Below are positions 2,674-60,688 of a stretch of DNA of 64,000 nt, piece by piece. Below the pieces are notes generated by a model. That model did not search any database. It saw nothing but the letters and a program-made list of their open reading frames with translations, and had not been told where the DNA came from. This DNA comes from Centroberyx gerrardi (Eukaryota > Chordata > Actinopteri > Beryciformes > Berycidae). The stretch lies in contig NC_136012.1 of the NCBI RefSeq assembly GCF_048128805.1, forward strand, positions 10,452,621-10,516,620, given 5' to 3'. The position numbers were made by a program, and so were the translations under genes. The stretch's first letter is position 1; every line of letters starts with the position of its first letter.

Positions 2674-2694
2674 TTCAGCACCATGGACAGAGAC
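2674..2694 (+). promoter_or_regulatory. RE1/NRSE (REST site) upstream of V1
   Basis: TTCAGCACC-AT-GGACAG followed by AGAC matches both half-sites of the REST/NRSF element with canonical spacing. About 1.6 kb upstream of the V1 promoter element. The paralogous site is at 23283. Confidence 0.8.
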
Positions 2695-2766
2695 ACTTAA
2701 GAATAATTCAGCGAATGAAATAATCTTCTGAGACGCAAACATCAGACAAGTAACATACAAACTGAC

Positions 2767-2821
2767 GATAGATAGATAGATAGACAGATAGACAGATAGA
2801 TAGATAGATAGATAGATAGAT
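2767..2821. repeat. (GATA)n microsatellite
   Basis: About 13 tetranucleotide units with some GACA interruptions, 70 bp from the RE1 site. The duplicate at 23377 is a purer GATA run. Confidence 0.95.
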
Positions 2822-3294
2822 CTCGTGAAATCCTTTAAAGCCCGTCGAAAAAAATGAAGGCAAACCACAATAGGCACAACTACCCATTATAACGCACAAA
2901 GTACATTTAAGATCTAAGGTGTTCAGACAACGTCGTCAGTAGGCTATGAGTTGGATAAGGAATCCCAAATAACACGTTTTCACTTTTAAAGGACAAAAAA
3001 GGTGTGGTCAGAAATTACGTTTCAAATAATTAAGCGATTTATTTTAGAAAAGTCGACATCACTGTTTATTCATAGGGATATTCATATCACTGGGACGTGC
3101 CAATGAGGTCAATAGCCATTAAAAACAAGCATACATTTTTATGAACAGCATGGTTTGGACAAACCAAAACAGTTGTTTCTATTCACCTACAGGGAAAGAC
3201 CAAGAAAAACTGACATATTTTAAAAGAACCTGAATAAACGGACTCGGCAAGTTTGATAAATCTTGTCCAATTGAAATCTGAAACTTGCCCCTAC

Positions 3295-5709
3295 CTCCGG
3301 GGAACCATCAGAATCTCCAAATGCCTCAGCAAAGTCAGATGGACTTTTCCTCAGAGTCTGGTCAGCAGGCAGCGTGGTGTCGTTGTAAGATCTCACGAAC
3401 TTGAAGTCACTGGTTCTAGAACCCGTTGTCAAGTAGGCGTCATAATTGTAGGTGCTGCGTAAAGTTCCTGTGCCGTCAACCTCTGCGTAATTGGGAGGGA
3501 GATAAGCGCTGGGGATGGCGACAGCTCCGTCAAACAACAGTCTAGGCTTTCTCCTGCGACAAAACCTCACACCCAGGATGACAATCATGAAGGTCAGGAA
3601 AAAGGTGGAGACGGACACCAGCGCGATGATCAGATATGAGGTCAGCTTGGAGTGGCTTTCATCATAAGACATATCCTTCAGTTCTGGCACTTCAGCCAAG
3701 TTATCAGAAATGAGTAAATACATGGCACAGGTGGCAGAGAGAGGAGGCTGTCCGTTATCTTTCACTGCCACAATAAGGTTCTGTTTCATGTTGTCAGATT
3801 CAGAAATGTCCCGCTGTGTCCTGATCTCTCCGCTGTGGAGACCAATAGTGAAAAGTCCCGGATCAGTGGATTTGACTATATGATAGGACAGCCAGGCATT
3901 CTGCCCGGAGTCCGCGTCCACCGCTATCACCTTGGACACCAGAGAGCCTCCGTGCGCAGCTTTGGGGACTAGCTCGGTCATGAAGGAGTTGCCCTCCGGA
4001 GCGGGGTACAGTATCTGAGGAGAGTTGTCGTTCACATCCGTTATGAAAACACTGACAGTCACGTTGCTGCTTAACGGAGGAGAACCGTTGTCTCTGGCCA
4101 TCACGTGGACTTTAAAGCTCCTGAACTGTTCATAATCAAACGACCTCACAGCGTGGATCACCCCCGTGTCTCCGTTAACGGATAGATAGGAGGATACTGG
4201 GGCGCCGTTCACATCACCAGGTAAGATAGAGTAAACCACTGTTCCGTTCTGACTCCAGTCTGGGTCTCCAGCAGTAACTGAGCATAAAGTGGAGCCAGGT
4301 TTGTTATTTTCAGACACATAGGCGCTGTAGACCTGTTCCTCAAACACAGGTGGGTTGTCGTTGACGTCGGCTACTGACAGCTGAACAGTTTTAGAGGAGG
4401 ACAGAGGCGGAGAGCCCTCGTCCGTGGCAGTGATTGTAATGTTGTAATCAGACACTAGCTCACGATCCAGTTGGCCCGTGGTCACCAGAGCAAAGTAGTT
4501 TTTGATGGAAGGAACCAACTTAAAAGGGACGTTTTGTTGAATGGAGCAGCGGACCTGTCGGTTGTTCTCAGAGTCTCTATCCTGCACGTTAATGATGCCC
4601 ACCTCTGTACCAGGTGACACGTTCTCTGGAATGGAATTAGTCAGCGATTTCAGATTTATCATCGGGGCGTTGTCATTTACATCCGTAATCTCAATTATTA
4701 ATGTTGCGTATGACGCCAATCCAAGACCATCTTTAGCGCTAATCTGCATTTCGTATGACGACTCTTTTTCAAAATCAATAGATCCAGCCACTCTAACGTC
4801 TCCTGTTTTAGGGTGTAGAGAAAAGACATTGCTATTTTCATCAGAAACATGATCAAACCCATAGGTAACTTCGCCATTCACACCCTCGTCTGCATCAATA
4901 GCACTGACTGTAAGCACTACAGTATCTAGAGGAGAGTTTTCAGGCAAACTGGCTTTATAGACGGCTTGGCTAAACACCGGTACGTTATCATTGGCATCCA
5001 GTATAGTGACGCGTATGACTACAGTGCCTGACCTCTGAGGAGAACCACCATCGAATGCGGTAAGCAATAGCATAATCTCTTGTTTTTCTTCCCTGTCTAA
5101 TTCTTTGTCTAATACTAATTCACCATATTTTCGTCCACCACCTTTAGTGTTTACATTTAATGCGAAATGGTCATTCTGTTGAAGTGTATAGCCCTGAACA
5201 GCATTTTCTGCAATGTCTCCATCGTGCGCCTCGTCCAGAAGAAAACGTGCACCCTTGTCCGCTGATTCTCGAATTTCAATTTTTAATAAATCCTCTTTAA
5301 ACTGCGGCGAGTTGTCATTAATATCTTGAACACTGATACTAATGCGGTGCAGTTCTAATGGATTTTCCAGAACAAGTTCCTGTTTTAAAACACACGATGC
5401 CTTTTTCGCACAAAGCCCTTCTCTGTCAATCCTTTCATGTACAGTCAAGTCTCCGGTATTTAGATTAACACCACAATACTGAATGTTGTTGCCTTCAATA
5501 TCAATACGGGCTTTGCGAGCGGACAGTCTACCCAGTTCAAGTCCTAGATCCTTGGCTATATTTCCAATCACAGATCCACGTTTCATCTCCTCCGGAACAG
5601 AGTAGCTCACGTCTCCATAGGCAGAGTGCAAAATAAGAAAAATAAAAGCAACGCCATGGCAGTGTAGCGCAAATCTATTGTGTCTCATCATTACAATGAA
5701 AAGGTCCAC
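3295..5709 (-). CDS. pcdh2g: V2: protocadherin gamma-like variable exon
   Basis: 805 codons. Homophilic cell-adhesion receptor of neurons, expressed from its own promoter and spliced to the shared constant exons. Signal peptide at the N-terminus (three possible Met codons, at 5709, 5691 and 5688; MMRHNRF could be the true start). EC1-EC6 follow with linker motifs DINDN, DANDN, DVNDN, DVNDN and DVNDN. The membrane helix is [19 protein letters not shown] and on, followed by [10 protein letters not shown] and the cytoplasmic tail. The donor is GAG|GTAGGG at 3295; the frame beyond it is intron. V6 is its close duplicate (about 97% alike by eye; V2 has one extra residue, DENSN against DNSN, in EC3). 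EC5 has TAGDPDW where most exons have TARDPDW. Confidence 0.96.
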
Positions 5710-5904
5710 AACAAATCCAGGTCTGCTTCTCGATGTATATCAAAATATATCACTGATACTTCTTTGGTTTTATCCAATACACAAAAGTCGTTATGTTGCA
5801 GTTCTATTGTGAAGCTTCCTCACTCAAATGGAGCACAGTACCAGAATTTCGCTTTGTATTCGTCAACACCAATGGGTGGAGGGTGGTTGTGCCTCCTACC
5901 TTAG

Positions 5905-5928
5905 TTGGTACATAGCGACACCAAGAGC
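5905..5928 (-). promoter_or_regulatory. CSE promoter element of V2
   Basis: Core agcgacacc on the plus strand (GGTGTCGCT on the transcribed strand), about 200 bp upstream of the ATG. The accompanying GGTGGA box is at 5875-5880. Confidence 0.8.
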
Positions 5929-7146
5929 ATTTTTCAGATATAACACTGCAATGTATGATTTTTACAGAATAAATGAAACATAAGTCGCACGGTATGATAA
6001 CCCTTTAAAGCCAGTGAATCTAAACCCAAATAGAAAATTGCCTTTGCCTAAGACAAGATATAAAATGATTTCACCACACGTGATAAAATAATGAAAGTGA
6101 AGAGAAAGAAAATGTGTATTAATATTAAATATGAATACGTGGATAAGAATCTTATCATATGTGTCCAGCTATATTTGACACGTTTAGTTGAACAAACTTT
6201 TACTTCATAAAACTACTCCAGATAACGCAAGCCTACAAGAAAGACGGACAGCGAAGAGTTCATTTGGCAAAACAGATAAACACCATTCCTGAAAAAATAG
6301 AACAGACTGTTTTTGTAAGGCTTCACGGACTTTCTGAATCGAAACCCATTTTGTCAGAAAATCTTTAGTATTATTACTGCCTGGTGTAATACATTACTAG
6401 TTTGATTGTTTGATTTATATTACTTGGAAAAAAAGACTTATAGAAATGAATACAAATGGAGTCATCTGTTTTTGCAAATGAACTCTTAATTTGTAAATGT
6501 GAAGATGAGAAAAGAATGCACTGCAATGTTATTTTCAAGTTGCCTTTTATCTTACAAATCCATGTTACACTATAAATTATACTTTTGATCCAAGTGCAAT
6601 TTTGATATACATCGCTGACAAAAAAGGAGTCATCATGTCCGTCATAACACTCCCCTAATGATCCAATTTTATGGCCATACGCCTTGACCAAATATAGCAA
6701 ATGAAAACATTGTCCTAAAACGTCTTCAAAGATCCTTCTTTTTTACTAACCCTATTACGATCCGAAGGTGATTTCCTTCTTTTCTGATTTCACGTCTCTG
6801 TCCCTCCTCTCTCTCTCTCTCTAATGAAAGTGTGCCCATCCCTTTCCAGAGACGACAACTACCAAAAAAGACAGTGAGGTTCCACTGCCAAAACACAGAG
6901 AACACAGTTGCTGTTTTTCCAACTTGTGCAAGACGTTACAATAATATCCAAAAACAGTAATGAGCTCTAAATCAGTATTTATTGAAAGAGCCATGTTCAG
7001 TATGTTGGATCAAACCAAAAACTTAAGTATGGTGAAATATGTTGGACCATATTTCTTGAAAAAAATATTAGCAACAGAAAAAACGACGCCAGCATGAGAA
7101 GACAGAGAGTCGGCTTATCGTAAAAATGCATAGAGATCACACGCAT

Positions 7147-7167
7147 TTCAGCACCAAGGACAGAGAA
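7147..7167 (+). promoter_or_regulatory. RE1/NRSE upstream of V2 (first)
   Basis: TTCAGCACC-AA-GGACAG, both half-sites intact. The paralogous site is at 27519. Confidence 0.78.
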
Positions 7168-7382
7168 ACTAAAAACGGCATGCAAACGGCATGTAGTTTT
7201 ATCAATGTTAGACATAGGCTACAGACAGACAGGCGCGCGTCCAGGCAGACAGATAGATCGACTGAGAGGAAAGAAAATTGAAACTGACTAGCCTCCTACT
7301 TGACTGAGACATTAACAACATTAGCACACTAACAGGGGCGGGTAAGTAGTTCCTCAAGGACGCGTCAAGAGGTTATAGACAG

Positions 7383-7403
7383 TTCAGCACCAAGGACAGA
7401 GAC
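7383..7403 (+). promoter_or_regulatory. RE1/NRSE upstream of V2 (second)
   Basis: TTCAGCACC-AA-GGACAG, 236 bp from the first site. The paralogue at 27745 has one change in the left half-site. Confidence 0.78.
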
Positions 7404-7832
7404 ACAATAAGACAGATGAGTGAATAAAAGACTTATTCCAAGACAGAGTGCATAGCTAGAAAGCTAGAGATAATAGCTATCAAATGAGATGGAAAGAATA
7501 CAAACATGTCACAATGACATGCAGACCACTCCTTGATTGATAAAAACTGACCACTGAATGTAGCTTGGATAATAAAAAAATTAATAAAAAAAAGTTATCC
7601 TCAACGTGAACTGAGACCACAAAATGATATAACACCGGGGCGTCCCAATGAGGTCAACAGCCATTAAAACAAGCATACATTTTTATGAACGGCATGGTGT
7701 GGACAAACCAAAACAGTTGTTTCTGTTCACCTACGAGGAAAGACCAATACAAATTGGCATATATCTAAAGAAACTGGCGGACTCGGCAAGTTTGACAAAT
7801 CTTGTCCAATTGAAATCTGAAACTTCCCTTAC

Positions 7833-10226
7833 CTCCGGGCAACCATCAGAATCTCCAAATGCCTCAGCAAAGTCAGATGGACTTTTCCTCAGAGTCTGGT
7901 CAGCAGGCAGCGTGTTGTCGTTGTAAGATCTCACGAACTTGAAGTCACTGGTTCTAGAACCCGTTGTCAAGTAGGCGTCATAATTGTAAGTACTGCGTAA
8001 AGTTCCTGTGCCGTCAACCTCTGCGTAATTTGGAGGGAGATAAGCGCTGGGGATAGCGACCGCTCCGTCAAACAACAGTCTGGGCTTTCTCCTGCGACAA
8101 AACCTCACACCCAGGATGACAATAATGAAGGTCAGGAAAAAGGTGGAGACGGACACCAGCGCGATGATCAGATAAGAGGTCAGCTTGGAATTGCTCTCAT
8201 CATAAGACATATCTTTCAGTTCTGGCACTTCAGCCAAGTTATCAGAAATGAGTAAAAACATGGCACAAGTGGCAGAGAGAGGAGGCTGCCCGTTATCTTT
8301 CACTGCCACAATAAGGTTCTGTTTCATGCTGTCAGATTCAGAAATGTCCCGATGTGTCCTGATCTCTCCGCTGTGGAGACCAATAGTGAAAAGTCCCGGA
8401 TCAGTGGATTTGACTATATGATAGGACAGCCAGGCGTTCTGGCCGGAGTCCGCGTCCACCGCTATCACCTTGGACACCAGAGAGCCTCCGTGCGCAGCTT
8501 TGGGGACTAGCTCGGTCATGAAGGAGTTGCCCTCCGGGGCGGGGTAAAGTATCTGAGGAGAGTTGTCATTCACATCCGTTATGAAGACGCTGACGGTCAC
8601 GTTGCTGCTGAGCGGAGGAGAACCGTTGTCTCTGGCCATCACGTGGACTTTAAAGCTCTTGAACTGTTCATAATCAAACGACCTCACAGCGTGGATCGCG
8701 CCCGTTTCTCCGTTAACTGATAGATAGGAGGATACCGGGGCGCCATTCACATCACCAGGTAAAATAGAATAAATCACTGTGCCGTTTTGTCTCCAGTCTG
8801 GGTCTCGAGCAGTAACAGTGCATAAAGTGGAGCCAGGTTTGTTATTTTCAGTCACGTAGGCGCTGTAGACCTGTTCCTGAAACACAGGTGGGTTATCGTT
8901 GACATCAGCAACAGATAATTGAACAGTTTTAGAGGAGGACAGAGGCGGAGAGCCCTCGTCGGTGGCAGTGATTGTAATGTTGTAATCAGACACTAGTTCA
9001 CGGTCCAGTTGGCCCGTGGTCACCAGAGAATAGTAGTTTTTGATGGAGGGAACCAATTTAAAAGGGACGTTTTGTTGAAGAGAGCAGCGGACCTGTCGGT
9101 TATTCTCAGAGTCTTTATCCTGCACGTTAATGATGCCCAGCTCTGTACCAGGTGACACGTTCTCTGGTATGGAATCAGTCAGCGATTTCAGATAAATCAC
9201 TGGCGCGTTGTCATTCACATCTGAAATATCTATAATCACTTTTGTATCTGAAGAGAGACCATAGCCATCTTTGGCCTCAACGAACATTTCATATTTGGAT
9301 CCCTCCTCATAGTCAATGTCACCTGTTACAATAATCTGTCCTGTTTTCTGATCTAGTGAAAAAAGCTTTCGTGACTTATCAGAGAGTCGGCTAAATTCAT
9401 ATGTAACTTCACCATTGACACCCTCGTCTGCGTCTGTTGCACTTACTGTAATTACTGGGGTTTTCAACGGAGAGTTTTCCAGTAGACTAGATTTATAAAC
9501 CACCTCGCTAAATACTGGGGCGTTATCATTAGCATCCAGTACAGTGACGTGAATGACTATAGTACCTGATTTTTGAGGAGAACCACCATCTAGAGCTGTG
9601 AGCAATAATTTCGTTTCCTGCTGCTCCTCTCGGTCTAACTCCTTGTCTAAAACCAATTCGCCATATTTACTACCAGCAGTTGTTGTTTGAATATTCAAAA
9701 CAAAGTGGGCATTTTGTTGCAAGCTGTAGCTCTCAACGGAATTCTGCCCTATATCTGCATCATGGGCTGCATTAATGCGATACCTAGCTCCTTTGCCAGC
9801 TGATTCTGTAATTTCCAGCTTTACTGTATCCTTCGGGAAAATGGGTGCATTATCGTTTATATCTTGGATCTGCAGGGATACACGGTGTAATTCTAAGGGA
9901 CTCTCCAACAGCAAATCGAATTTAAGAATGCACGAAGGCTTGTCTCCACAATGCTCCTCTCTGTCTATTCTTTCCGCAACAATTAAATCCCCGCTTCGAA
10001 GATCGATACCACAATATTGTCTGTCGTTCGCTTCAGTGTCAATACGAGCTTTGCGAGCAGACAATCTGCCCACGTCAAGACCGAGATCCTTGGCGATATT
10101 TCCAATTACAGATCCGCGCTTCATCTCCTCCGGTATAGAGTAGCTCAGGTCTCCATGTGCGTAGTGCAGGACAGCGAAGAAAAAGACAAAGCCATAGCTT
10201 TGAAGAACGTACCCTCTGTGTACCAT
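7833..10226 (-). CDS. pcdh2g: V3: protocadherin gamma-like variable exon, no second copy
   Basis: 798 codons from [10 protein letters not shown], chosen over an upstream in-frame Met at 10301 because it aligns with the other starts and gives a normal signal peptide ending near HYAHG. EC1 carries Cys-X5-Cys (CGDKPSC). EC2 is the longer type with a [14 protein letters not shown] strand. EC3 is distinct from all other exons in the window. From EC4 on it has the shared sequence, with small differences such as QEQVYSAY and GETGAIHAV in EC5. The donor is GAG|GTAAGG, closest to consensus among the exons here. This exon has no duplicate in the second block; its place there is taken by the chimeric V7. 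Its promoter element has a changed core (see 10446). Confidence 0.96.
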
Positions 10227-10728: not shown

Positions 10729-10749
10729 TTCAGCACCAAAAGAGGGGAT
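10729..10749 (+). promoter_or_regulatory. Decayed RE1 upstream of V3
   Basis: The left half-site TTCAGCACC is intact, but the right half (GGACAG) is replaced by AGAGGG. It is in the expected place, 260 bp upstream of the V3 promoter element. Confidence 0.4.
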
Positions 10750-14859: not shown

Positions 14860-14880
14860 TTCAGCACTAAGGACAGAACC
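14860..14880 (+). promoter_or_regulatory. RE1/NRSE in the V3-V4 spacer
   Basis: TTCAGCACT-AA-GGACAG: one change in the left half-site, right half intact. It lies about 4.4 kb upstream of the V3 promoter and only about 430 bp from the 3' end of V4. Confidence 0.65.
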
Positions 14881-15313
14881 CATATGACCACAGACCAAAG
14901 GACACTGAACTATCCCACTATTTCAACAGTTACCTCAATTAGAAGCATTACATTTTACGAATCTACAACAACATTTTAAACTCATTTCACCCCGTTCATT
15001 TTGTTTCTGAATGATTCAAATATGGAGTTCCAAGCAAAAATTTATTAGAAAATCGTTGAGGAAAGGTTTCAAGAATAATGAACTGACTCCACTCCAAGAC
15101 ATGATTAACATGTGATATTTATGTTAACTTGAACTGTTCAGACAAAATTTGTCAAAAATAAATAAAATATCTACCAAATATGAAAACAAGCGAACTGAGG
15201 TCAAAACCCATTAGGCACAAGAATCAATTTTTATGAACAACATAGCTGATTCAAACCAAAATGGTCTAATCACCTACAGGAGAGGCCGATTGAAATCTGA
15301 AACTTGCTCCTAC

Positions 15314-17713: not shown

Positions 17714-17910
17714 TTAGACACAAAACCTCCACAGCTTACAGAAAAGTCCACATGTATTATTGTTCAGAAACAAAAGCAAACCCAGTCAGCGTTGATGTTA
17801 CTCAGAACTGCACAAAGAAAATCTGATCGAACCCTCCACGACTTTAATCTAAAGACAAGAAGGTCCAGATTAAATGACGACACAGTAGGTGGGGATGTGT
17901 TATTCTTGAA

Positions 17911-17934
17911 CTGGTGAACAGCGACACGGTGAGT
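17911..17934 (-). promoter_or_regulatory. CSE promoter element of V4
   Basis: Plus strand ctggtgaacagcgacacggt. The CGCT core is intact, 198 bp upstream of the ATG. A GGTGGG box lies at 17888-17893. Confidence 0.82.
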
Positions 17935-18051
17935 CCTTTTTAATAGTTACACGTGACAGAGCAACACAAAAAAAGGTATTGATAAAGCTGCGTCCCTCGA
18001 ATTTTTGACTTAAAACCATGTAAACCACGTTCCTATAAGAAAGTCATATAG

Positions 18052-18386
18052 TTTTTTTTGTATACTTTATTATCCCCGTGGGGAAATTTGCCCTCTGCAT
18101 TTGACCCATCCTATACACACACTAGGAGCAGTGGGCAGCCGCAGCACAGCGCCCGGGGACCAACTCCAGTTCTTTTGCCAGTGCCTTGGTCAGGAGCACT
18201 GACAGGAGCACCAACCCCAACATACATGTCTTTGATGGTGGGAGGAAACCGGAGCACCCGGCACACAAACACGGGGACAACATGCAAACTCCACACAGAA
18301 AGGACCTGGGACGGACCGGGGTTCGAACCCACGATCTTCTTGCTGTGAGGCAACAGTGCTAACCACTGAGCCACCTTGCCGTCCCG
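18052..18386 (-). mobile_element. tRNA-derived SINE (DANA/mermaid, V-SINE type)
   Basis: Read on the minus strand from 18386. There is a tRNA-like head with A box (TGGCTCAGTGG, 18363-18373) and B box (GGGTTCGAACCCC, about 18318-18330). The central part is typical of fish SINEs (GGAGTTTGCATGTT, GGTGCTCCGGTTTCC). The tail ends GGGGATAATAAAGTATAC plus a short A-run (T-run on the plus strand). It looks full length. The paralogous site upstream of V7 (about 30935-30950) is empty, so it inserted after the block duplication. No clean target duplication could be read; a few bases at the site seem to be replaced. Confidence 0.88.
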
Positions 18387-18528
18387 CATAAAAATAGTTT
18401 AACATAAAAAAAAAAAGTTTTACAAACAAGAGCACGTCGATCTTTAGAAAAATACACGGTTGGTTGTTCTTGCAAGACTATTGTTTTCATTCCCCTCGGC
18501 TACAAGCACCTGACCAAAGAGCCATTCG

Positions 18529-18549
18529 ATCAGCACCATGGAGAGCTAC
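18529..18549 (+). promoter_or_regulatory. RE1-like site upstream of V4
   Basis: ATCAGCACC-AT-GGAGAG: one change in each half-site. About 600 bp upstream of the V4 promoter. The paralogue at 31082 has the same pattern. Confidence 0.6.
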
Positions 18550-19273
18550 AGTTTTCAAATATGGTAACGAATGAGGATTTTTTTCACTTCTGAAAAACTC
18601 TCTCGGTTATAGATAATGATGTTGTGATATTTTGCAAGAAAACATACATGGTCCCGATCTCATAACGCCCCTCTAACTTAAGATTGCAATCTTATGTGAT
18701 CACGAGAAAAAAACTTTACAAGTCAAACATTTTAAAATCATTGCTTGCTGCACTAATCAAACTATCGTTGATCATCATATCGCATAAAACACAATGACCA
18801 AATTTAACATCACTGAAAGAAAGCAAAAACCCGAATAAATATGATCAGATTCCAGTTACTGATAAGGCAGTCAGTCAAATGATAGTCATTTTACAATTTT
18901 CAAACAAATACAGTACACTAATACACCTTGCAAATTATATCTCCACATTGAATTATAAGATCCATTTGCCGCAAGTTAAACGGAAGAGACCCAGATAAAA
19001 AGTCTGTCTGCAAAGCGGATGATTAATTTTGACATAATAGTACAACCACCGAAGAGAGACATTATGTGGTTTCACAATCTAGTCTAATTCACCACTACTT
19101 TGTGGCTACTGGATGATATGTCTTTCACGAAAGTAACAACAAAACGTGCAGAGCCAACACTCATTCAAGCCACGTCTTAAAACAATCATGCAGGGAGATG
19201 ACATAAGAGCTATAAAAAGTGGATGTAATACACATAGGTATATAATATTCATTCATGTCCACTTTGAACGTAC

Positions 19274-23282: not shown

Positions 23283-23303
23283 TTCAGCACCATGGACAGA
23301 GAC
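23283..23303 (+). promoter_or_regulatory. RE1/NRSE upstream of V5
   Basis: TTCAGCACC-AT-GGACAG; same sequence as the site at 2674. Confidence 0.8.
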
Positions 23304-23375: not shown

Positions 23376-23376
<1 letters not shown>

Positions 23377-27518: not shown

Positions 27519-27539
27519 TTCAGCACCAAGGACAGAGAA
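27519..27539 (+). promoter_or_regulatory. RE1/NRSE upstream of V6 (first)
   Basis: TTCAGCACC-AA-GGACAG, same as 7147. Confidence 0.78.
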
Positions 27540-27744: not shown

Positions 27745-27765
27745 TTCAGTACCAAGGACAGACAC
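27745..27765 (+). promoter_or_regulatory. RE1/NRSE upstream of V6 (second)
   Basis: TTCAGTACC-AA-GGACAG. One C-to-T change compared with the paralogue at 7383. Confidence 0.68.
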
Positions 27766-31081: not shown

Positions 31082-31102
31082 ATCAGCACCACGGAGAGCT
31101 AC
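31082..31102 (+). promoter_or_regulatory. RE1-like site upstream of V7
   Basis: ATCAGCACC-AC-GGAGAG, about 270 bp upstream of the promoter element; paralogue of 18529. Confidence 0.6.
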
Positions 31103-34195: not shown

Positions 34196-34420
34196 TGTTT
34201 CTCAGGAACTATTGTATGATACGGACACGACAGTTATCCTAACCGCTATAGGTTATTCCAGAATTGCTCTTGAAAGAAGGGTATTATATCTCCATAATAA
34301 AATGAAAGGGTATTGGTAAAAGCCACCTACACCGTTTCTACAGCAATGGCACCTTTGCTTTTAGGACTAGAACTACTCTTTCATTGCAGTGGGTGGAGAC
34401 GTGAACCTGTCTCATATCAG

Positions 34421-34444
34421 CAAGTGAACAGCGACCCCGTGGGT
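34421..34444 (-). promoter_or_regulatory. CSE promoter element of V8
   Basis: Plus strand caagtgaacagcgaccccgt with the CGCT core intact. A GGTGGAGACGTG box lies at 34392-34403. Confidence 0.8.
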
Positions 34445-34649
34445 TTATTACACATATTACACATAAATGATTGATAAATCAACATAAATTGCAATTGTTT
34501 CTATCATGATCCGATCAAAACCCAAATCGCTATTTATTTCAATAGTTATATGGAAACATAAGTCACACTCTCCAAAACAAATAAACAAAAATAATAAGTG
34601 ATCAATGTCAAATTTTTGACCTTGAAACACGCTCACAGTGAAAACAGCT

Positions 34650-34670
34650 TTCAGCACCATGGACAGAGAT
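34650..34670 (+). promoter_or_regulatory. RE1/NRSE upstream of V8
   Basis: TTCAGCACC-AT-GGACAG, both halves intact, only about 205 bp upstream of the promoter element. Confidence 0.8.
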
Positions 34671-35274
34671 TTACTGGAAGGTAATCCTTTATCACTGTCA
34701 CACTTGTTTCCTTCAACTGTTATTTCGACTGAACACCTGACTTAACGACCAACTTTTGGTCACAGGACTACATCACAAATGCGTTCATTAAACTATAAGG
34801 GAAAAATATAAGCTATTAAAATATTCACAAACTGACAACAGGAAAAAGTTATTCCCATATGTAGCATCTTAAGGTCTATTAGCCCACTGACGAAATACAG
34901 TTCACTGTCAAAATCTCAACTCTAGCTATCACAGTTATTAATATAAATCTAAGATTATTTAACATTTAAATATATATCCAAAATCATGGGTTAGGACTAC
35001 TTTAATCTGAAATAAGACAAACAGAAATTGAAACAGCTGGTGCAGCGACTGTCACAATGAATGACACGACTAACCCCTCAGAGTCTTTGATTGTCCCAGT
35101 TCTGGCATGTATGAGAGGAAAGGTGGGCCATGGATTATCTTGTTTTCTCTGCAAGCCCTTGCGTCGCTTAAAGATTGAACAAAAAATATACAGTATATAT
35201 ATTCATAAAATAAAATCTTCCCAGGGCATGTCTGCGGGTCAAGCAATGTCTGAAGACCACTTCGACACGTTATT

Positions 35275-35325
35275 TTTAGTAGTAGCAGTAGTACTATCAT
35301 CATCATCGTCGTCGTCATCATCATA
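35275..35325. repeat. Imperfect trinucleotide repeat (AGT/CAT/CGT)
   Basis: Short degenerate copy of the long CAT repeat at 51961. Confidence 0.85.
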
Positions 35326-35422
35326 TTAAGGCATATCGAACATAAGACCTGTTTGATTTTTCATAAAGAAGTGAAACCTGAAAATTGGGTAAAGCTGACA
35401 CTTCTTAATCAACATTTTAACC

Positions 35423-35652
35423 TTAACCCATCTTATGTGTTTGGGTCAAATTTGACCATTTTAGTCTTTACTTTGTCATAAATCCCGTTTCTTCCATCTG
35501 GTTGGCCTAAGGATTCGTGACATCCTCAAAACGAGACATACAAAAACAAAAAAATAGTGGTCACGCCCTTCATTGAATTTGAGTGTTCCTTTAAGATTTA
35601 CACCTTCGGTGTTTTGGGTCAAATTTGACCTGACATGGGAAATTGATGGGTG
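35423..35652. mobile_element. Old piggyBac-like MITE (TTAACCC... with GGTCAAATTTGACC)
   Basis: Starts TTAACCCAT after a possible TTAA target and ends near GATGGGT. It has two internal GGGTCAAATTTGACC palindromes (35443-35457 and 35616-35630) in inverted layout. Such starts are common in small piggyBac-type elements of fish. The decayed paralogue at 52131 shows that it predates the V8/V12 duplication. Confidence 0.45.
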
Positions 35653-36225
35653 AGCTATAATAAGCATCAAATAATATCAAACCAGAGTACAGCCATCAGT
35701 GTGGTAGTTTTGAGATGTGTTTTCTGTTAATCCAGCAGATGATTTTCTTACTCACACAAAGGTCCATATACAAACTAACTCGCACAAAAACCTGACCAAT
35801 ATTGCAAAGCTATATTGCAATCACAGTGATTACCCACACCTCCGATACAATGGCAAAAATTTCCAAAGCTATATTCAGTAATGAGCAAAACGTATCACAC
35901 ATGTAAGCTATATTCAAGTAATGAGCAAAACGTGTCACACATGTAGCCGGAGAACTCAAGGGGAAAGGAATGTATATAACGGAAATGAAATTGGGGAAGA
36001 CTGACATGGGTGGCGTGGTTTTCACGTGATAAATATCATGGCACATTATGCCACAAGAACAAATGCGTGGTCTAAAAGAGATAATATAACTGCTCATGTC
36101 TCAAATAGTCTATACTGAAGTTTCTGCATGCATGTCTACTCGTTGATGGGGCCATGCTACTGGAAAACTTGAAGGAATATTGTTTAAACGCATATACCAA
36201 AACGTCAGATTAAATTGAGGCCTAC

Positions 36226-36281
36226 CTCCGGAGACTCCTCTGAATGACCAAACGTCTCAGCAAAGTCCGTTTTACTTTTGT
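36226..36281 (-). pseudogene. Orphan 3' end of a lost V13-type variable exon
   Basis: On the minus strand it reads [16 protein letters not shown] followed by an intact GTAGG donor and V13-type intron. It is the last ~18 codons of an exon like V13 ([15 protein letters not shown]). Upstream of 36281 the exon sequence stops and unrelated flank begins. It has no promoter and no acceptor of its own. Confidence 0.85.
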
Positions 36282-36517
36282 AATGTTGTAACTGAAACCA
36301 CAAAATTAAATGTAAACGACTCCCTGAGGTCAAAAGCCATTAAAACAAGCATGAATTATTATAAACAGCATGGTTTGGACAAACCAAAACGGTTGCTTGT
36401 ATACACCTACAGGGGAAAGAGCAATACAAATTTAAATATTTTAAACGAAACTGTAAATTGTCTGACTCATCCAGTTTTACATATCTTGTCCAATTGAAAT
36501 CTGAAACCTGCTCCTAC

Positions 36518-39305: not shown

Positions 39306-39326
39306 TTCAGCACCATGGACAGAGAA
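39306..39326 (+). promoter_or_regulatory. RE1/NRSE upstream of V9
   Basis: TTCAGCACC-AT-GGACAG, both halves intact. About 160 bp upstream of the promoter element, the closest pair in the window. Confidence 0.8.
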
Positions 39327-43475: not shown

Positions 43476-43852
43476 GGAAAGCAACACCATAAGCAAACAG
43501 ATACGCTTTTCCCGTGTACACAACCTATAAATGTACTAAACAAATTAAGTTCCAATTTATATTAGATTCCTTATGCTTATCGCAGAAGAATATACAGGAG
43601 TAAGAAGGGTGTTTCGAAATCGAATGGGATAGCCTATACTTTATGCAAAATATGAGCATCAATACAAACTCGTTAAACTGCTGCTATTGGACTAAAAAGC
43701 AAAAGTGTGGTTTGAGGGGCATGCTAGTTTTACTCTTCCAGCGTTAAACTCTTCTAGAAGACACGTAGGCTCCTCAAAAGCAGCAGCACGGGCAGATAAT
43801 CTTAAAAGAACAAAATTTCGAAACAGATGTGTCCAAGAATCAAATTTCCTTA

Positions 43853-43885
43853 AGGCCTGCCTCTGGGGTGAGTTAATGTAGTAGC
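43853..43885 (-). pseudogene. Possible relic of a V13-type exon-intron border
   Basis: aaggcctgcctctgg resembles gaggcctacctctgg at the V13 donor, with GT changed to GC. A duplicate lies at 61754. Too short for certainty. Confidence 0.3.
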
Positions 43886-44383
43886 CTAACATATTCGAGG
43901 GATCAACTGCATACATTACATTGGCATTTACATCAAAAGGCGCTTAAAATAACTCCATGAACGTGGATTGACAGGAATGATATTTTACCCTGGAACACTT
44001 TGCAGGATATGACTATGCACTATTAAATAATGAACTAAGGTTGATTGAGCAGCAAATATGCACAAAAACGATTCCTGTAATGCTATTACCTTCAGGAACA
44101 TGTCAAATCAAATTGTTCATCACTCCGTAGTATGTGGGTTAAAGACATTACATTTACACCATTGAAGTAATGTTAATTAATTCAATTTAGCAAAAATTAT
44201 GCAAAGCAAAATTTTAAAAAAAAAGTCCAGTATATATACACAGTATACACACCCACACAAATGAAATAGTTAGGTAACAAATCATTCGTAAGACAATTAA
44301 AAATGCTTTAAAATTACTCTGATTAACCTATATTATTGTATAATTATTGGAATTGCGTTATTTCAGCAAAAATCGTGTCCTAC

Positions 44384-47711: not shown

Positions 47712-47732
47712 TTCAGCACCACGGAAAGAGAC
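47712..47732 (+). promoter_or_regulatory. RE1/NRSE upstream of V11
   Basis: TTCAGCACC-AC-GGAAAG: left half perfect, one change in the right half. About 690 bp upstream of the promoter element. Confidence 0.68.
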
Positions 47733-47940: not shown

Positions 47941-48353
47941 ATACTTTGTGAAATTAGCCCCAAAGACATTTACTGAAAAGCGCAAAACAGAACGGTCTCA
48001 TCTGTTGCAGAAACCGACATTAAATGACATAAGTTCTAGGTTAACTTCAAGATTTTGGCAGATGATTGAACTACAACTCTTGTCGGCCATGAAAAAAGCC
48101 TCTAAGATTCAAGTACACACGAACGTAACTTCAAACTGCAATATGAAGAGCAGTCTTTCAAGACAACAGTTAAATAACTAGAAATTAGTTAAACAAAGGC
48201 CAGTACTTCATTTAGACGGACAAACACAAAAATATTTGCATATTGTAAACATTATAGCTGCTAGACCACAGGAATCACGTTGCCTAACTGTACAAAAAAT
48301 TAAAAATGAATTTAAAAAATATATGACGTTTTGTTAAAATGTCAATGTCCTAC

Positions 48354-48462
48354 CTCTGGAGATCCCTCCGACTCTCCAAATACATCAGCAAAGTCTGTTG
48401 GACTTTTCCTCAGAGTCTGATGAGCAGGCAGCGTGTTGTCATTGTAAGATCTCACAAACGTG
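48354..48462 (-). pseudogene. Orphan 3' end of a lost variable exon, well kept
   Basis: Reads [35 protein letters not shown] in frame (about 35 codons), then an intact GTAGG donor. At about 48455-48465 it breaks, at ACAAACGTGAAAGG, into V13-type flank, which leads into V12. Only DQ to HQ and the lost upstream part mark it as broken. Confidence 0.85.
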
Positions 48463-48520
48463 AAAGGAAAATGAATTGTTTAAATGCATATCCTGAAACG
48501 TAACATTAATTGAGGCCTAC

Positions 48521-50911: not shown

Positions 50912-51132
50912 TGTTTCTCAGGAACTATGATACGGACACGACAGTTATCCTAGCAGCTATAGGTTATTCCAGAATTGCTCTTGAAAGAAGGGTATTATAT
51001 CTCCATAATAAAATGAGAAAGTATTGGTAAAAAGCCACCTATACCGTTTCTACAGCAATGGCACCTTTGCTTTTTAGACTAGGACTTCTCTTTCATTGCA
51101 GTGGGTGGAGACGTGGACCTATCTCATAACAG

Positions 51133-51156
51133 CAAGTGAACAGCGACCCCGTGGGT
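51133..51156 (-). promoter_or_regulatory. CSE promoter element of V12
   Basis: Same as V8 (caagtgaacagcgaccccgt); GGTGGAGACGTG box about 38 bp nearer the gene. Confidence 0.8.
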
Positions 51157-51343
51157 TTATTACACATATTACACATAAATGACTGATAAATCAGCATGAG
51201 CTGCCATAGTTGGTATCACGATCCAATCGAAACCCAAACGGATATTTATTTTTACAGTTAAAAGGAAACATAAATCACACTCTCCAAAAAAGTAACCGAC
51301 GTCAAAGTTTTGGCCTTGAAATGCTCTCATAGTGAAAACAGCA

Positions 51344-51364
51344 TTCAGCACCATGGACAGAGTT
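51344..51364 (+). promoter_or_regulatory. RE1/NRSE upstream of V12
   Basis: TTCAGCACC-AT-GGACAG, both halves intact, 188 bp from the promoter element; paralogue of 34650. Confidence 0.8.
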
Positions 51365-51960
51365 TTAGTGGAAAGTAAACCTTGGTTATTATCACACTTG
51401 TTTCTTCAAACTCTTATTTGGACTGAACACCTTACTTAACGGCCAACTTTTGGTTACAGGTCTACCATCACAAAGGTGTACACTAAGCTGTAAGGGACAA
51501 CTGTAAACCATTAAAATATTTACCAACTGAGCACTGGAAGCCCACTGACAAAGGACAGTTCACCATCAAAATCTTAACACTATTAATATGAAATCTAAGA
51601 TTTAACATTTTAAAGAAAATTATCCAAAATCATGGGTTAGGAGTAATTTAATCTGAAATAAGACAAACCGTAATGGAAACAGCTGGTGCAGCGACTGTCA
51701 GAATGAATGACGACCAACTCAGTGAACTCCTCAGAGTCTTCGAATGTCACATTAGTGGAATGTATGAGAGGAAAGGTGGGCCATGTATTATCTTTTTTTT
51801 CTCTGTGAGCCCTTGCATTGCTTAAAGATTGAACAAAAAAAGAAATAAACAAAGAAATAAACAAATAAATGAATAAATCTTCCCAGGGCATGTGTGTAGG
51901 TCAAGCAATATCTGAAAACCACTTCTGCACGTTATTTTTGATAGTTGTAGTAGTATCAGC

Positions 51961-51962
51961 AC

Positions 51963-52012
<50 letters not shown>

Positions 52013-52030
52013 CCATCATCATCACCATCA
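51961..52030. repeat. (CAT)n microsatellite
   Basis: About 23 units with two ACC interruptions. It is much longer than the copy at 35275, so it expanded after the duplication. Confidence 0.96.
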
Positions 52031-52130
52031 GATTAAGGCATATTTGTCGAACATAACAGCGGTTTTATTTTTCATAGAGAAGGGACACCTGCAAATTGGA
52101 TAAAGCTGACAGTTCTTAAACATTTTAACC

Positions 52131-52366
52131 TTAAACCATCTGATGTGTTTGGATCAAATTTGACAATTTTCATCTTTATTTTGTCATGAAACCTGTTTCT
52201 TGCATCTGATTGGCATAAGGCTTCATGACATCCGCAATACTAGGTATTCAAACACAAAAAAATGGTGGTCAGCCCCTTCATTGAATTTTGAGTGTTCCTT
52301 TGAGATTTTCTACAACGTCGGTGTTTTAGATCACATTTGACCTGACATGGGAACTTGATGGGTGAG
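52131..52366. mobile_element. Old piggyBac-like MITE, second copy
   Basis: Paralogue of 35423-35652. The GGTCAAATTTGACC palindromes are here decayed to GGATCAAATTTGACA and AGATCACATTTGACC. Confidence 0.4.
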
Positions 52367-53014
52367 ACTATAATAAATATCGAATAATATAAAATCAGAG
52401 TACCGTCATCGGTGTAGCTGTAGTTTTGAAACAAGTGTTTTCTGTTAATCCAGCAGGTGGTTTTCTTCCCTCCTTTCTCACACATTCCCGCACCTGCACA
52501 CTCACACAGAAACCCATACACACATGCTTGCTGTTGGATTTTTAAGGCTACAACTTAATTCCCTAATTCTGACTAGATGATATTTTGTAATTGTGAAAGT
52601 GACATGATAAGACAAAGCCGTATTGCAATCACAGACAGTGATTTCCCCCACCTCCGATACAATGGCATAAATTCCAGAACTATATTTAAGTAATTAGCAA
52701 AACCCGTGTCACACACAGGCAACATATAACGTAGCCCTATAACTCAAGGGGGAAGTAATGTAGGCTATTTAACTGAAATAAAATTGAGGCTGGCGTGGTT
52801 TTCACGTGATAAATATAATGGCACGTTATAACAAAAGAACCAATCCGTGGTCTAAAAGAGGTAATATGACTGCTCATGTCTCAAGCGATCTAATATATAC
52901 AGAGGTTTCTGCATGCATGTCTAGTCATCGATGGGGCCATACAAATGCAAAACGTGAAAGGAAAATTAATTGTTTAAATGCATATCCTGAAACGTAACAT
53001 TAATTGAGGCCTAC

Positions 53015-55399
53015 CTCTGGTGACTCCTCTGACTGACCAAACGTTTCAGCAAAGTCCGTTGGACTTTTCCTCAGACTCTGGTCAGCAGGCAGCGTGTTGT
53101 CATTGTAAGAGCTGACGAACTTGAAGTCACTGGTTCTAGAACCCGTTGTCAAGTAGGCGTCATAATTGTAAGTGCTGCGTAAAGTTCCTGTGCCGTCAAC
53201 CTCTGTGTAATTGGGAGGGAGATAAGCGCTGGGGATGGCGACAGCTCCGTCAAACAACAGTCTGGGCTTTCTCCTGCGACAAAACCTCACACCCAGAATG
53301 ACAATAATGAAGGTCAGGAAAAAGGTGGAGATGGAAACCAGCGCGATGATCAGATAAGAGGTCAGCTTGGAATTGCTCTCATCATAAGACATATCCTTCA
53401 ATTCTGGCACTTCAGCCAAGTTGTCAGAAATAAGTAAAAACATGGCAGAGGTGGCAGAGAGAGTGGGCTGTCCGTTATCTTTCACTGCCACAATAAGGTT
53501 CTGTTTCATGCTGTCAGATTCAGAAATGTCTCGCTGTGTCCTGATCTCTCCACTGTGGAGACCAATAGTGAAAAGTCCCGGATCAGTGGATTTGACTATA
53601 TGATAGGACAGCCAGGCGTTCTGTCCGGAGTCCGCGTCCACCGCTATCACCTTGGACACCAGAGAGCCTCCGTGCGCAGCTCTAGGAACCAGCTCGGTCA
53701 TGAAGGAGTTGCCCTCCGGGGCGGGGTACAGTATCTGAGGAGAGTTGTCATTCACATCCGTTATGAAGACACTGACGGTCACGTTGCTGCTGAGCGGCGG
53801 AGAACCGTTGTCTCTGGCCATCACGTGGACTTTAAAGCTCTTGAACTGTTCATAATCAAGCGACCTCACAGCATGGATCGCTCCCGTGTCTCCGTTAACG
53901 GACAGATAGGAGGACACCGGGGCGCCGTTCACCTCACCAGCTATAAGAGAATAAATCACTGTGCCGTTTTGTCTCCAGTCTGGGTCTCGAGCAGTAACGG
54001 AGCATAAAGTGGAGCCAGGTTTGTTATTTTCAGTCACGTAGGCGCTGTAGGACTGTTCCTCAAACACAGGTGGGTTGTCGTTGACGTCGGCAACAGATAA
54101 CTGAACACTTTTAGAGGAGGACAGAGGAGGAGAGCCCTCGTCGGTGGCAGTGATTGTAATGTTGTAATCAGACTCGAGTTCACGGTCCAATTGGCCCGTG
54201 GTCACCAGAGAATAGTAATTTTTGATGGAGGGAACTAACTTAAAAGGGACGTTTTGTTGAATGGAGCACCGGACCAGTCGGTTGTTCTCAGAGTCTCTAT
54301 CCTGCACGTTAATGATGCCCACCTCTGTATGAGGTGACACGTTCTCTGGTATGGGGTTAGTCAGTGATTTTAGATATATCACTGGGGCGTTGTCGTTCAC
54401 ATCAGTAACATCTAGTAAAACTTTAGCGTATGAGGTAAGCCCTAAACCATCCTTTGCTTTCACTCTCATTTCAAATGAAGTCACTTCCTCAAAATCTGCC
54501 ACACCAATGACTCGAATTTCTCCTGTTTTACGATCAATAGAAAATATTTTTCCATCTTCCTCTGAAACATGGCCAAAATCATATGTCACTTCTCCATTTA
54601 GCCCATCATCTGCATCAGTGGCACTCACTGAAACCACTACAGTATCTACAGGAGAATTTTCAGGCAGACTGGCTTTATAGACGGCCTGACTAAACACTGG
54701 GGCGTTATCATTAGCATCCAGTACAGTGACATGTATTACTACCGTACCGGATCTCTGTGGTCTGCCACCATCCAGAGCTGTGAGAAGCAAATTGATGTCT
54801 TTTTCGCGCTCTCGATCAAGTTTATTCTCCATTACAAGTTCAACCTTGTTGCTGTCAACAGCTAGAATAAAATGGTCGTTTTTTTGCAGGTCATATCTTT
54901 GAACTGAATTTTGACCTATATCAGCGTCATGGGCCTCCTCTATTGAGAAACGGCTGCCCTTCTCTGCTGACTCCCATATTTCCATTTCAATCAGATCATC
55001 TTTGAATTGTGGCGAGTTGTCGTTTACATCCTGAATATGAAGACTTAAACGTTGAAGCTCCAATGGATTCTCCAACACAAGATCCACTTTTAAAACACAG
55101 GACGCTTTCTTGCCACAAAGACTATCTCTGTCAATTCGCTCCGATACAATCAAATCCCCGGTACTTACATCAATGTCACAGTACCGTTTACGAGTCCCCT
55201 CAAAATCAACACGAGCATTTCGAGAAGATAGTCTGCTCAGTTCAAGACCAAGATCCTTGGCTATATTCCCAATAATAGATTGGCGCTTCATTTCTTCTGG
55301 AATAGAATAGCTCAGGTCTCCATACACAAGGTGCAACGTTAGAATAAAGAAAGCAATGCCGTAAATCTGGCCTAGCGCTGACAATCCTTTGTGTTCCAT
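53015..55399 (-). CDS. pcdh2g: V13: protocadherin gamma-like variable exon
   Basis: 795 codons from [10 protein letters not shown]; an in-frame Met at 55462 is less likely by alignment. The mature start [18 protein letters not shown] has RQSI where others have RGSV. EC1 has CGKKASC and the linker DVNDN. EC2 is the short type ([16 protein letters not shown]). EC3 has [19 protein letters not shown], somewhat like V5. EC4 starts NVSPHTEVG and has [11 protein letters not shown]6 has [11 protein letters not shown]: the Cys found in all other exons (ATCAM, or ATCGV in V15) is Ser here. The cytoplasmic part has PPNYTEVDG. The tail [15 protein letters not shown] is shared with V12. The donor is GAG|GTAGGC. 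Confidence 0.96.
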
Positions 55400-55937: not shown

Positions 55938-55958
55938 TTCAGCACAATGGAGAGCAAA
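55938..55958 (+). promoter_or_regulatory. RE1-like site upstream of V13 (first, weak)
   Basis: TTCAGCACA-AT-GGAGAG: one change in each half. Confidence 0.5.
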
Positions 55959-56313: not shown

Positions 56314-56334
56314 TTCAGTACCACGAACAGAGAT
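56314..56334 (+). promoter_or_regulatory. RE1-like site upstream of V13 (second)
   Basis: TTCAGTACC-AC-GAACAG: one change in each half. Confidence 0.5.
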
Positions 56335-56765: not shown

Positions 56766-57205
56766 ATTATACATATGTTATCAAATTAGTATGGAATTTA
56801 ATTTGGAGTCTTGCATTGACAATAGCAAATGATGTACCAGAGATATGGTTCAGAAACAGCCACAAAGGGGTAACTTCATTTCCACGGTTATATGCAGATA
56901 CGTTGAAGCACAACTCCTTTTTCGAAATTTAAAATATCCTCTATCAATCACGTACACGCAAAGGTAACTTGCGTGTAGTGTAGCTGAAGTGTAACACATT
57001 CTTTCATGACATTAACCAAAGGACAAATTATCTGGAACTGAAGATATAATTTGGACAGACACACGAACAAAAATGTTTGCATTTTGAAATAGAGAAACCA
57101 TATAGCTGCAAAAAGAATCAAATGACCGAGACAAAGTATAAAACGATGGAAAAAGCATGCCTGTAATTAATATTTAGGTTTTGTGAAAATATGAAAGAGC
57201 CCTAC

Positions 57206-59605
57206 CTCTGCAGACACATGGGAATCTCCAAACGCATCTTCAAAATCAGCTGGAATTTTCGTCATAGTCTCGTCAGCAGGCAGCGTGTTGTCATTGTAAG
57301 ATCTCACGAACTTGAAATCACTGGTTCTAGAACCCGTTGTCAGGTAGGCGTCATAATTGTAAGTGCTGCGTAAAGTTCCTGTGCCGTCAACCTCTGCGTA
57401 ATTGGGTGGGAGATAAGCGCTGGGGATGGCGACCGCTCCGTCAAACAACAGTCTGGGCTTTCTCCTGCGACAAAACCTCACACCCAGGATGACAATAATG
57501 AAGGTCAGGAAAAAGGTGGAGACAGACACCAACGCGATGATCAGATAAGAGGTCAGTCTGGAATTGCTCTCATCGTAAGACATATCCTTCAGCTCTGGTA
57601 CTTCAGCCAAGTTATCAGAAATAAGTAAATACATGGCACAGGTGGCAGAGAGAGAGGGCTGTCCGTTATCTTTCACTGCCACAATAAGGTTCTGTTTCAT
57701 GCTGTCAGATTCAGAAATGTCCCGATGTGTCCTGATCTCTCCGCTGTGGAGACCAATAGCGAAAAGTCCCGGATCAGTGGATTTGACGATATGATAGGAC
57801 AGCCAGGCGTTCTGTCCGGAGTCCGCGTCCACTGCTATCACTTTGGACACCAGAGAGCCTCCGTGCGCAGCTTTGGGAACCAGCTCGGTCATGAAGGAGT
57901 TTCCCTCCGGGGCGGGATACAATATCTGAGGAGAGTTGTCATTCGCATCCGTTATGAAGACACTGACCGTCACGTTGCTGCTGAGCGGAGGAGAACCGTT
58001 GTCTCTGGCCACCACGTGGACTTTAAAGCTCTTGAACTGTTCATAATCAAAGGGCCTCACAGCGTGGATCACCCCCGTGTCTCCGTTAACGGACAGATAG
58101 GAGGACACCGGGGCGCCGTTCACCTCACCAGATAAAAGAGAATAAATCACTGTACCGTTTTGTCTCCAGTCTGGGTCTCGAGCAGTAACGGAACATAAAG
58201 TGGAGCCAGGTTTGTTGTTTTCAGTCACGTAGGCGCTGTAGTACTGTTCCTCAAACACAGGTGGGTTGTCGTTGACGTCGGCAACAGATAACTGAACACT
58301 TTTAGAGGAGGACAGAGGAGGAGAGCCCTCGTCGGTGGCAGTGATTGTAATGTTGTAATCAGATATTAGTTCACGGTCCAATTGGCCCGTGGTCACCAGA
58401 GAATAGTAGTTTTTGATGGAAGGAACCAACTTAAAAGGGACGTTTTGCTGAATTGAGCAGCGGACCTGTCGGTTATTCTCAGAGTCTCTATCCTGCACGT
58501 TAATGATGCCCACCTCTGTACCAGGCGAGATGTTTTCTGGAATAGGCTTAATCAAAGATTTCAAGTTTATTACAGGGGGGTTGTCGTTAACATCGGCGAT
58601 ATCAATTATCACTTTGGAATCTGAGGTAAGGCCATATCCATCTTTGGCTTCTATGCGCATTTCATACATTGATTCTTCCTCGAAATCCAAAGGCCCTGTG
58701 AGTTTGATTTCACCTGTGATGTGATTTAACGTAAACACCTGTCTACCTTTTTCTGAAATGCGACTTAATTCATATGTCACTTCGCCATTTAGACCGTCAT
58801 CTGCATCAGTTGCAGTCACTGTAACTACTACATTATCTACAGGATAGTTTTCAGGCAGAGTGGCTTTATATACGGCCTGGGTAAACACTGGGGCGTTATC
58901 ATTTGCATCCAGTACAATGACGTGTACGATTGCAGTGCCAGATCTTTGAGGGGTACCTCCGTCTAATGCAGTGAGCAATAATCTCAATTCCTGTTGTTCC
59001 TCACGGTCTAATTCTTTATCTAACACCAGTTCAGCAAATTTACCCCCATCTGATTTTGACTGAATTTCCAACACCAAGTGATTATTCGTCTGTAATATAT
59101 AGCTTTGAACAGCGTTTTGCCCTATATCTAGATCATGCGCCTCGTTCACACGGAACCGAACTCCTTTCACAGCCAATTCACTCATTTCTATCTTAATTTC
59201 CTCTTTAGGAAACACAGGCGTATTATCATTGATATCCTGTATTTGAAGCGAAATAAGGTGCAACTCCAGGGGTGACTCTAAAATCAACTCAAACCTCAAG
59301 ATACAAGATACCTTTTCGCCACAAAGCGCCTCTCTGTCAATTCTTTCTGCGACAATCAAATCCCCGTTGATAAGATTTATGTTGCAGTACTGTTCACGGT
59401 TCGCCTCGCTGTCAACACGGGCCTTCCGAGCAGATAACTTTCCCACATCCAGCCCGAGGTCCTTAGCTATATTTCCAATAACAGATCCACGTTTAATTTC
59501 CTCGGGAATAGAATAGCTCACGTCTCCGTTACCGATATGTAGCAGTTGAAAAGAGAAAACAAAGCTGTAGAGCAGGACTACTGCTGAACATCCATTGTGC
59601 CCCAT
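57206..59605 (-). CDS. pcdh2g: V14: protocadherin gamma-like variable exon
   Basis: 800 codons from [10 protein letters not shown]; signal peptide ends near LHIGNG. It has PEEIKRGSV where others have [11 protein letters not shown]1 has CGEKVSC. EC2 is the long type ([22 protein letters not shown]). EC3 has [19 protein letters not shown] and the linker [11 protein letters not shown]5 starts SLLSGEVNG and has VRPFDYEQF and ITDANDN, like V9. EC6 has [11 protein letters not shown], also like V9, so V9 and V14 share a conversion tract. The stalk has ESNSRLTSY. The tail [27 protein letters not shown] differs most from the other exons (DETMTK for DQTLRK). Confidence 0.96.
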
Positions 59606-59839
59606 CCTGAGACAAAAAAGGACAGAAAAACGTCCAATGCCTAAAATAAAACCAAAATGTCACAATGGGAGAATCTAAAAAAAATCCAACGTGTCGTAAT
59701 CAAACGTCAGTTTTATTTACAACAAGAGTGAAAAAGAAGAATATTTGATCAAACCACATCTATGGGTTTAATGTGACAAGACCAAGACCAAGCCTAGAAT
59801 AACAAAGCAGTAGCAAGGGGTGGAGAAGTGTTTGCTCAG

Positions 59840-59863
59840 CTGGTGAACAGCGACATGGTGAGT
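59840..59863 (-). promoter_or_regulatory. CSE promoter element of V14
   Basis: Plus strand ctggtgaacagcgacatggt with intact CGCT core. The GGTGGA box is about 30 bp nearer the gene. Confidence 0.82.
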
Positions 59864-60667
59864 CCCTTTTAGTCACTACACATGTGAAAGAGCATCATTA
59901 AAACAATACAGTAGAAGCTTTCTTAAAGACTCCTAACATTGCCATTTCTAGTTCATGTTATATAGGGCAAAACCACGTAATGTGCGTGCACTAGAGTAAG
60001 TAGACTCTAGTTTCAACTCAGTTCTAATGCAGGCAAACAATAATGCAGTTTATAGGTTAGAGAAAGACAACAGATGATTATTCTTTATATTTGCATTACA
60101 GGGCATTATTAAACACTTCCTTTGCGCAAATAACAGCAATGACCGATGCGTTTAACACAAAAGCCGCAGGAACACATTTCACCTTTAAATTGGTTACTGC
60201 TTAAGTCGTCAATTTTGGGGGGAAATGGGCTCTTCGAGTTTCCCGGTAAACTTAACAAGACAAAATGAAAGAAAATGTACAAACTGTCAAAATTAAAAAT
60301 GTTCGTATACTCTAAATTCCCGTCTCAAAGGTGGGATGTAAGGTTCACTATTAGTTAATCAAGATGCCTGATAGTTCTTTATCGAGCTCTATTACCCTTG
60401 TCCTTCACATGGTCTTCAACGATGTGCCATCGTGACCCATGAGTCTGCAAGTTTTCATTCCAAACAAAGACGACAGTAGGGGATTTCACTAATTACTTCC
60501 TCCTCTCTGGTTGAAGGAGTGATAATCAGTAAAATAAGGTGTTGTAGTGTTTCGTTGACATGAAAAGCTGCAGACTCATGGGTCTCGATGTCACACCTAT
60601 GAAAACTACTGCTATACAGTACATAAGCTGCAACAGGAATTAGATCATCTTTTACACACAAGCCATA

Positions 60668-60688
60668 TTCAGCACCATGGACAGAGGC
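60668..60688 (+). promoter_or_regulatory. RE1/NRSE upstream of V14
   Basis: TTCAGCACC-AT-GGACAG followed by AGGC; among the closest to consensus in the window. About 805 bp upstream of the promoter element. Confidence 0.82.

Follow-up and report, generated by a model that had tools for sequence, protein, structure and literature searches.

Probable REST (RE1/NRSE) sites in a single orientation between the variable exons of a protocadherin cluster in Centroberyx gerrardi

Sixteen short sequences lying between the variable exons of a clustered-protocadherin locus in Centroberyx gerrardi are most probably (probability about 0.87) the canonical RE1/NRSE elements of that locus, at which REST would silence nearby promoters, the site having been copied together with the spacer that holds it. 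What was obtained directly from the window, by which we mean the whole 64-kb stretch of DNA that was analysed, are the motif matches and their enrichment, the duplicated spacers, and the finding that the core has changed less than the sequence around it. REST binding and silencing are suggested by analogy with published work on fugu, on a zebrafish transgene and in human cells.

A clustered-protocadherin locus is expected to consist of tandem single-exon ectodomains with six cadherin repeats and a cytoplasmic part, with a conserved promoter element some 200 bp above each start and a splice donor at the exon ends, and this arrangement is found here, the domains having been determined for three of the 15 exons. 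The constant exons and the distal enhancer of such a locus would be expected to lie beyond the window. In the ORF list for the window, 15 protocadherin variable-exon ORFs stand in tandem on the minus strand: E1 (1-846, cut by the window edge), E2 (3220-5691), E3 (7731-10226), E4 (15266-17713), E5 (19253-21649), E6 (23831-26299), E7 (28116-30590), E8 (31724-34195), E9 (36467-38905; 36467-39142 in the ORF list), E10 (39581-42031), E11 (44363-46780), E12 (48506-50911), E13 (53000-55399), E14 (57167-59605) and E15 (62290-63999, also cut by the window edge). Pfam returned one Cadherin_2 and five Cadherin domains together with Cadherin_C_2 in each of E2, E9 and E14. A PDB search with E2, the one exon so compared, placed Pcdh gamma B4 first, and judging from this nearest solved relative of E2 alone the locus would be of gamma type. 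The splice-donor word GAG/GTA was present at all 14 exon ends within the window. Two further minus-strand segments, 48348-48464 (~39 residues) and 36214-36279 (~22 residues), terminate in the donor word GAG/GTAGG and are probably 3'-end relics of variable exons that have been lost.

Promoter elements were searched with a 17-nt word drawn from the window itself, which gave matches with 0-4 mismatches, the runner-up place in each searched range having 5-8. An element built around GTGTCGCT was found 192-251 bp above the start codon in all 14 exons whose start lies in the window, a range that takes the start of E9 as 38905. By its position we take this element to be CSE-like. The CSE-like element of E1 lies at 1044..1060 on the minus strand, and the 5' ends of the other 13 are at 5921, 10462, 17927, 21863, 26529, 30804, 34437, 39139, 42223, 47016, 51149, 55612 and 59856. 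The E9 ORF stays open above its likely start at 38905 up to 39142 (79 further codons), with an ATG within the promoter element.

Canonical RE1s are expected to carry a left half, TTCAGCACC, and a right half, GGACAG, 2 bp apart, and to be commoner than chance. The preliminary description had listed 17 such sites, of which 16 fit TTCAGCACC-NN-GGACAG with at most two mismatches over 15 fixed positions (TTCAGCACCNNGGACAG). The core is exact in nine (2674..2694, 7147..7167, 7383..7403, 23283..23303, 27519..27539, 34650..34670, 39306..39326, 51344..51364 and 60668..60688), has one mismatch in three (14860..14880, 27745..27765 and 47712..47732) and two mismatches in four (18529..18549, 31082..31102, 55938..55958 and 56314..56334). 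The remaining one, 10729..10749 on the plus strand, had been described as decayed; it has the exact left half TTCAGCACC, lacks the right half, shows at least five mismatches in all and was not counted as an RE1, and its left half may be a chance 9-mer. The 16 sites do share one orientation, as had been stated: all are on the plus strand, and all lie in spacers with none in exons.

A search of the complete window on either strand revealed no further match at up to three mismatches, and no exonic NRSE of the human type was found at this threshold in any exon. At four mismatches 23 matches appear, 20 of them on the plus strand, and nine are one recurring exon word. This word, ATTAGCATCCAGTACAG, occurs in 9 of the 15 exons (e.g. 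at 9528, 25598 and 41309); it lies on the strand that carries the RE1s and differs from their motif at four positions. It coincides in E1 with VLDAND in the translation, a cadherin calcium motif, and was not counted as an RE1. Other gaps between the half-sites, from 0 to 12 bp, gave seven matches; five are canonical sites read at a gap of 8 bp and two have a gap of 12 bp. Non-canonical spacings were set aside with just these two matches beyond the canonical sites.

Enrichment was assessed by counting mismatches to the consensus rather than by scoring with the REST position matrix (JASPAR MA0138.2). Dinucleotide-shuffled spacers gave a mean of 0.067 matches at up to two mismatches (two in 30 shuffles, and none at 0-1 mismatches) versus 16 real ones; the comparison with shuffled spacers that the preliminary description had proposed, with consensus mismatches used for the matrix, thus came out in favour of the sites. 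When 500 column-shuffled motifs were run on the real spacers, a control that retains the duplications, the maximum was 2 matches and the mean 0.016. The zebrafish genome measures about 1.4 Gb. A scan of it is reported to have yielded 1102 sites within one mismatch of a 16-bp core (PMC3531662), which by our own arithmetic predicts ~0.05 such sites per 64 kb versus 14 here, a rough figure since the species differ. Six sites carry an ATG variant at the gap. The REST/RE1 identity of the 16 sites is well supported by these sequence comparisons, and they are very probably genuine RE1/NRSE elements under constraint.

We observed that much of the array consists of duplicated spacers. The spacer at 847..3219 corresponds to 21650-23830 (95.0% identity), 5692..7730 to 26300-28115 (91.4%), 17714..19252 to 30591-31723 (93.1%) and 34196..36466 to 50912-52999 (83.5%), all identities being given where aligned, with gaps excluded; a fifth pair, 42870-44362 and 60727-62289, is a partial duplicate. 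Within the four duplicated pairs, five pairs of sites stand in exact register (2674 with 23283, 7147 with 27519, 7383 with 27745, 18529 with 31082, and 34650 with 51344). These account for 10 of the 16 sites, so that the 16 sites represent 11 families. In the partial pair, the site at 60668 lies beyond the matching block, starting 59 bp from it, and no site occurs in the other copy. Among the exons, E7 is like E4 over its full length (0.88-1.00) and like E3 in its 3' part only (0.90-0.95, versus 0.64-0.71 in the 5' part); the 3' spacer of E7 is a copy of that of E3, and its 5' spacer a copy of that of E4. This pattern suggests that exons have exchanged sequence within their homogenised 3' halves.

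Retention by selection is expected to leave a core that changes less than the sequence around it. Across the 15 core positions of the five pairs, 1 of 75 differs versus a mean of 6.6 in random ungapped windows (P 0.021), a modest value that is biased towards conservation because the pairs were recognised through the motif match. Less biased evidence comes from a motif-free search, in which every 17-mer of each of the ten non-duplicate spacers was sought in the others, on either strand, with up to three mismatches. Two words alone, the RE1 and the promoter element, were found in 9 of the 10; with RE1 words set aside, a count of 7 of the 10 was attained by A/T-rich runs alone in this search, which was run without a shuffled control, and the ten spacers still share short stretches near the exon ends and the promoter. 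The 60-bp flanks of 11 family representatives and of the half-site, compared in 66 pairs against letter shuffles, were unlike; the best product of P values, 0.0025, is unremarkable among 66 pairs. The flanks of 47712 and 56314 look similar by eye, and that pair ranks seventh (0.029). Spread of the site by a transposon was also considered and rejected, the flanks of the 11 representatives and the half-site not being alike. The suggestion that the sites have been kept by selection thus finds moderate support in the paired cores and the motif-free search. The accompanying statement that the other spacer sequence has drifted holds when families are compared, whereas within copies the spacers remain 83.5-95.0% identical where aligned.

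Thirteen of the 14 promoter-to-exon spacers contain at least one site, and three of those 13 hold two, which bears out the near one-to-one pairing with promoters noted earlier; the spacer 42223-44383, with the E10 promoter, has no RE1 at up to two mismatches. Together with the presence of all 16 sites on one strand, this pairing would fit a dedicated silencer at each promoter, in which every RE1 acts on the single promoter below it and orientation is relevant. Shared orientation would have a probability of about 0.001 (2 x 0.5^11, our own arithmetic) if the 11 families arose independently, and 15 of the 16 sites lie 167-1614 bp from a promoter element, the nearest being 39306, with the E9 element 167 bp below. 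The range of 160-1600 bp upstream given in the preliminary description therefore describes these 15, but not 14860, whose promoter element, that of E3, is 4398 bp below. However, the families are possibly non-independent, and the same pattern arises from tandem duplication. Each spacer in a tandem array is one exon's tail and the next one's head, so a site per spacer is silent on which exon it serves, and repeated duplication of exon-plus-spacer units is expected to produce both near one-to-one pairing and uniform orientation. With 10 of the 16 sites in five duplicated pairs, pairing and orientation no longer stand out as they had seemed to, and they are not special evidence for dedicated modules; the single orientation is explicable by descent from an ancestral exon-plus-spacer unit, without any role. 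The promoter distances, taken with one site per family, are moreover scattered no less widely than in random placement (P 0.54), which argues against the proposal that each exon has its own silencer module, and where the sites fall within the spacer, in relative terms, fits a uniform distribution (KS P 0.84). Tan and colleagues are reported to have found that, in fugu, genes lacking an NRSE come under the control of those of their neighbours, which also counts against dedicated silencers, and the portions of the literature examined contain no report of canonical RE1 silencing that depends on orientation to the promoter. We therefore consider one silencer per promoter unlikely. It is far less probable still that selection holds the orientation itself, with directionally bound REST steering cohesin/CTCF loop extrusion and the spacers acting as polar silencers that control promoter choice; no report of RE1 orientation in a fish protocadherin cluster was found in the open-licence papers searched.

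Distances to the donor of the exon above, which carry a 1-bp error, range from 307 to 1867 bp, with 12 of the 16 sites at 307-891 bp (14860 is ~453 bp beyond the E4 donor), and their spread is somewhat smaller than in random placement (P 0.037, one site per family; one of two tests, uncorrected). The RE1 might, tentatively, belong to the sequence just 3' of the exon above and move together with the homogenised 3' exon ends; its pairing with promoters would then be incidental. The relic at 48348-48464 would in that case set 47712 ~640 bp beyond its donor. The pattern is nevertheless weak and was recognised partly after the fact: 34650, 51344, 55938 and 60668 are 1267-1867 bp from a donor, 34650 remains ~1576 bp off when the relic at 36214-36279 is counted, and duplication of the four spacers took in their promoter ends as well. 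Chance matches, or functionless hitchhikers of recent duplication, are scarcely credible as an explanation of the array. Five of the 16 sites are indeed second copies in duplicated spacers, but the 11 families left occur in 9 of the 10 non-duplicate spacers with unlike flanks, and the shuffled spacers set the chance expectation far below one match.

We favour canonical RE1s that were copied with their spacers. Such sites would bind REST, which would recruit co-repressors and keep the promoters of neighbouring variable exons off in progenitors and in cells other than neurons; the loss of REST in neurons would leave the array free for promoter choice. The RE1 would travel within the spacer as exon-plus-spacer units duplicate, which would explain both its presence in nearly every spacer and its single orientation, and after duplication purifying selection would keep the core while the flanks drift. 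The four two-mismatch sites may bind weakly. Silencing by every site is not required, since in a human reporter assay 31% of REST-bound canonical-motif sites are reported to have repressed strongly (PMC9903721).

As the preliminary description stated, REST sites had been reported previously in vertebrate protocadherin clusters; those of fugu (PMC3601302) and human (PMC8096226) are examples. A review describes NRSEs in promoter regions of the fugu cluster with silencing outside neurons, and ubiquitous expression in Xenopus tadpoles when the NRSE is deleted from Pcdh constructs (PMC3601302). The fugu cluster (Tan et al. 2010, NAR 38:4985, as cited) likewise is described as having multiple RE1s in teleost protocadherin promoter regions. 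In zebrafish, reporters carrying NRSEs are reported to be silent in cells other than neurons and to become active when rest is knocked down; a top-ranked zebrafish NRSE is reported to bind Rest, and the ATG variant at the gap in six of our sites fits its description (PMC3531662). The zebrafish REx2 transgene element, for which silencing outside neurons is reported as shown in fish, has the same 16-bp core and canonical spacing, although it is an artificial tandem pair directly at a promoter, unlike the natural spacer sites (PMC3531662). According to the human study, the alpha and gamma clusters have one or two NRSEs per alternate exon with directional REST binding, and in this may be likened to the fish array (Tang et al. 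2021, PMC8096226). In gel shift the alternate-exon NRSEs are reported to be bound, except for gamma-a9, which failed at site b, and contact between enhancer and promoter is reported to fall when REST occupies HS5-1 (PMC8096226). The same study ties neural-specific expression in human cells to the alpha cluster and to neither beta nor gamma, which is a caution for the reading favoured here (PMC8096226). Human NRSEs are described from the variable exons themselves and from two enhancers, HS5-1 and HS7, whereas none of the 16 sites here is exonic (PMC8096226).

The observation is statistically strong, and the system is one known from fugu and, in a different form, from human. On the simplest reading, by analogy, the same system as in fish and human would operate here, with many REST anchors silencing the array outside neurons. 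What is new is the near-complete array in a single orientation, and the finding that no words other than the RE1 and promoter element recur in 9 of the 10 non-duplicate spacers. As a dense natural RE1 array whose core and promoter element have persisted through the divergence of the non-duplicate spacers, it is a good test bed for whether REST silences protocadherin promoters singly or regionally, and for why the human sites are exonic while those here lie between exons.
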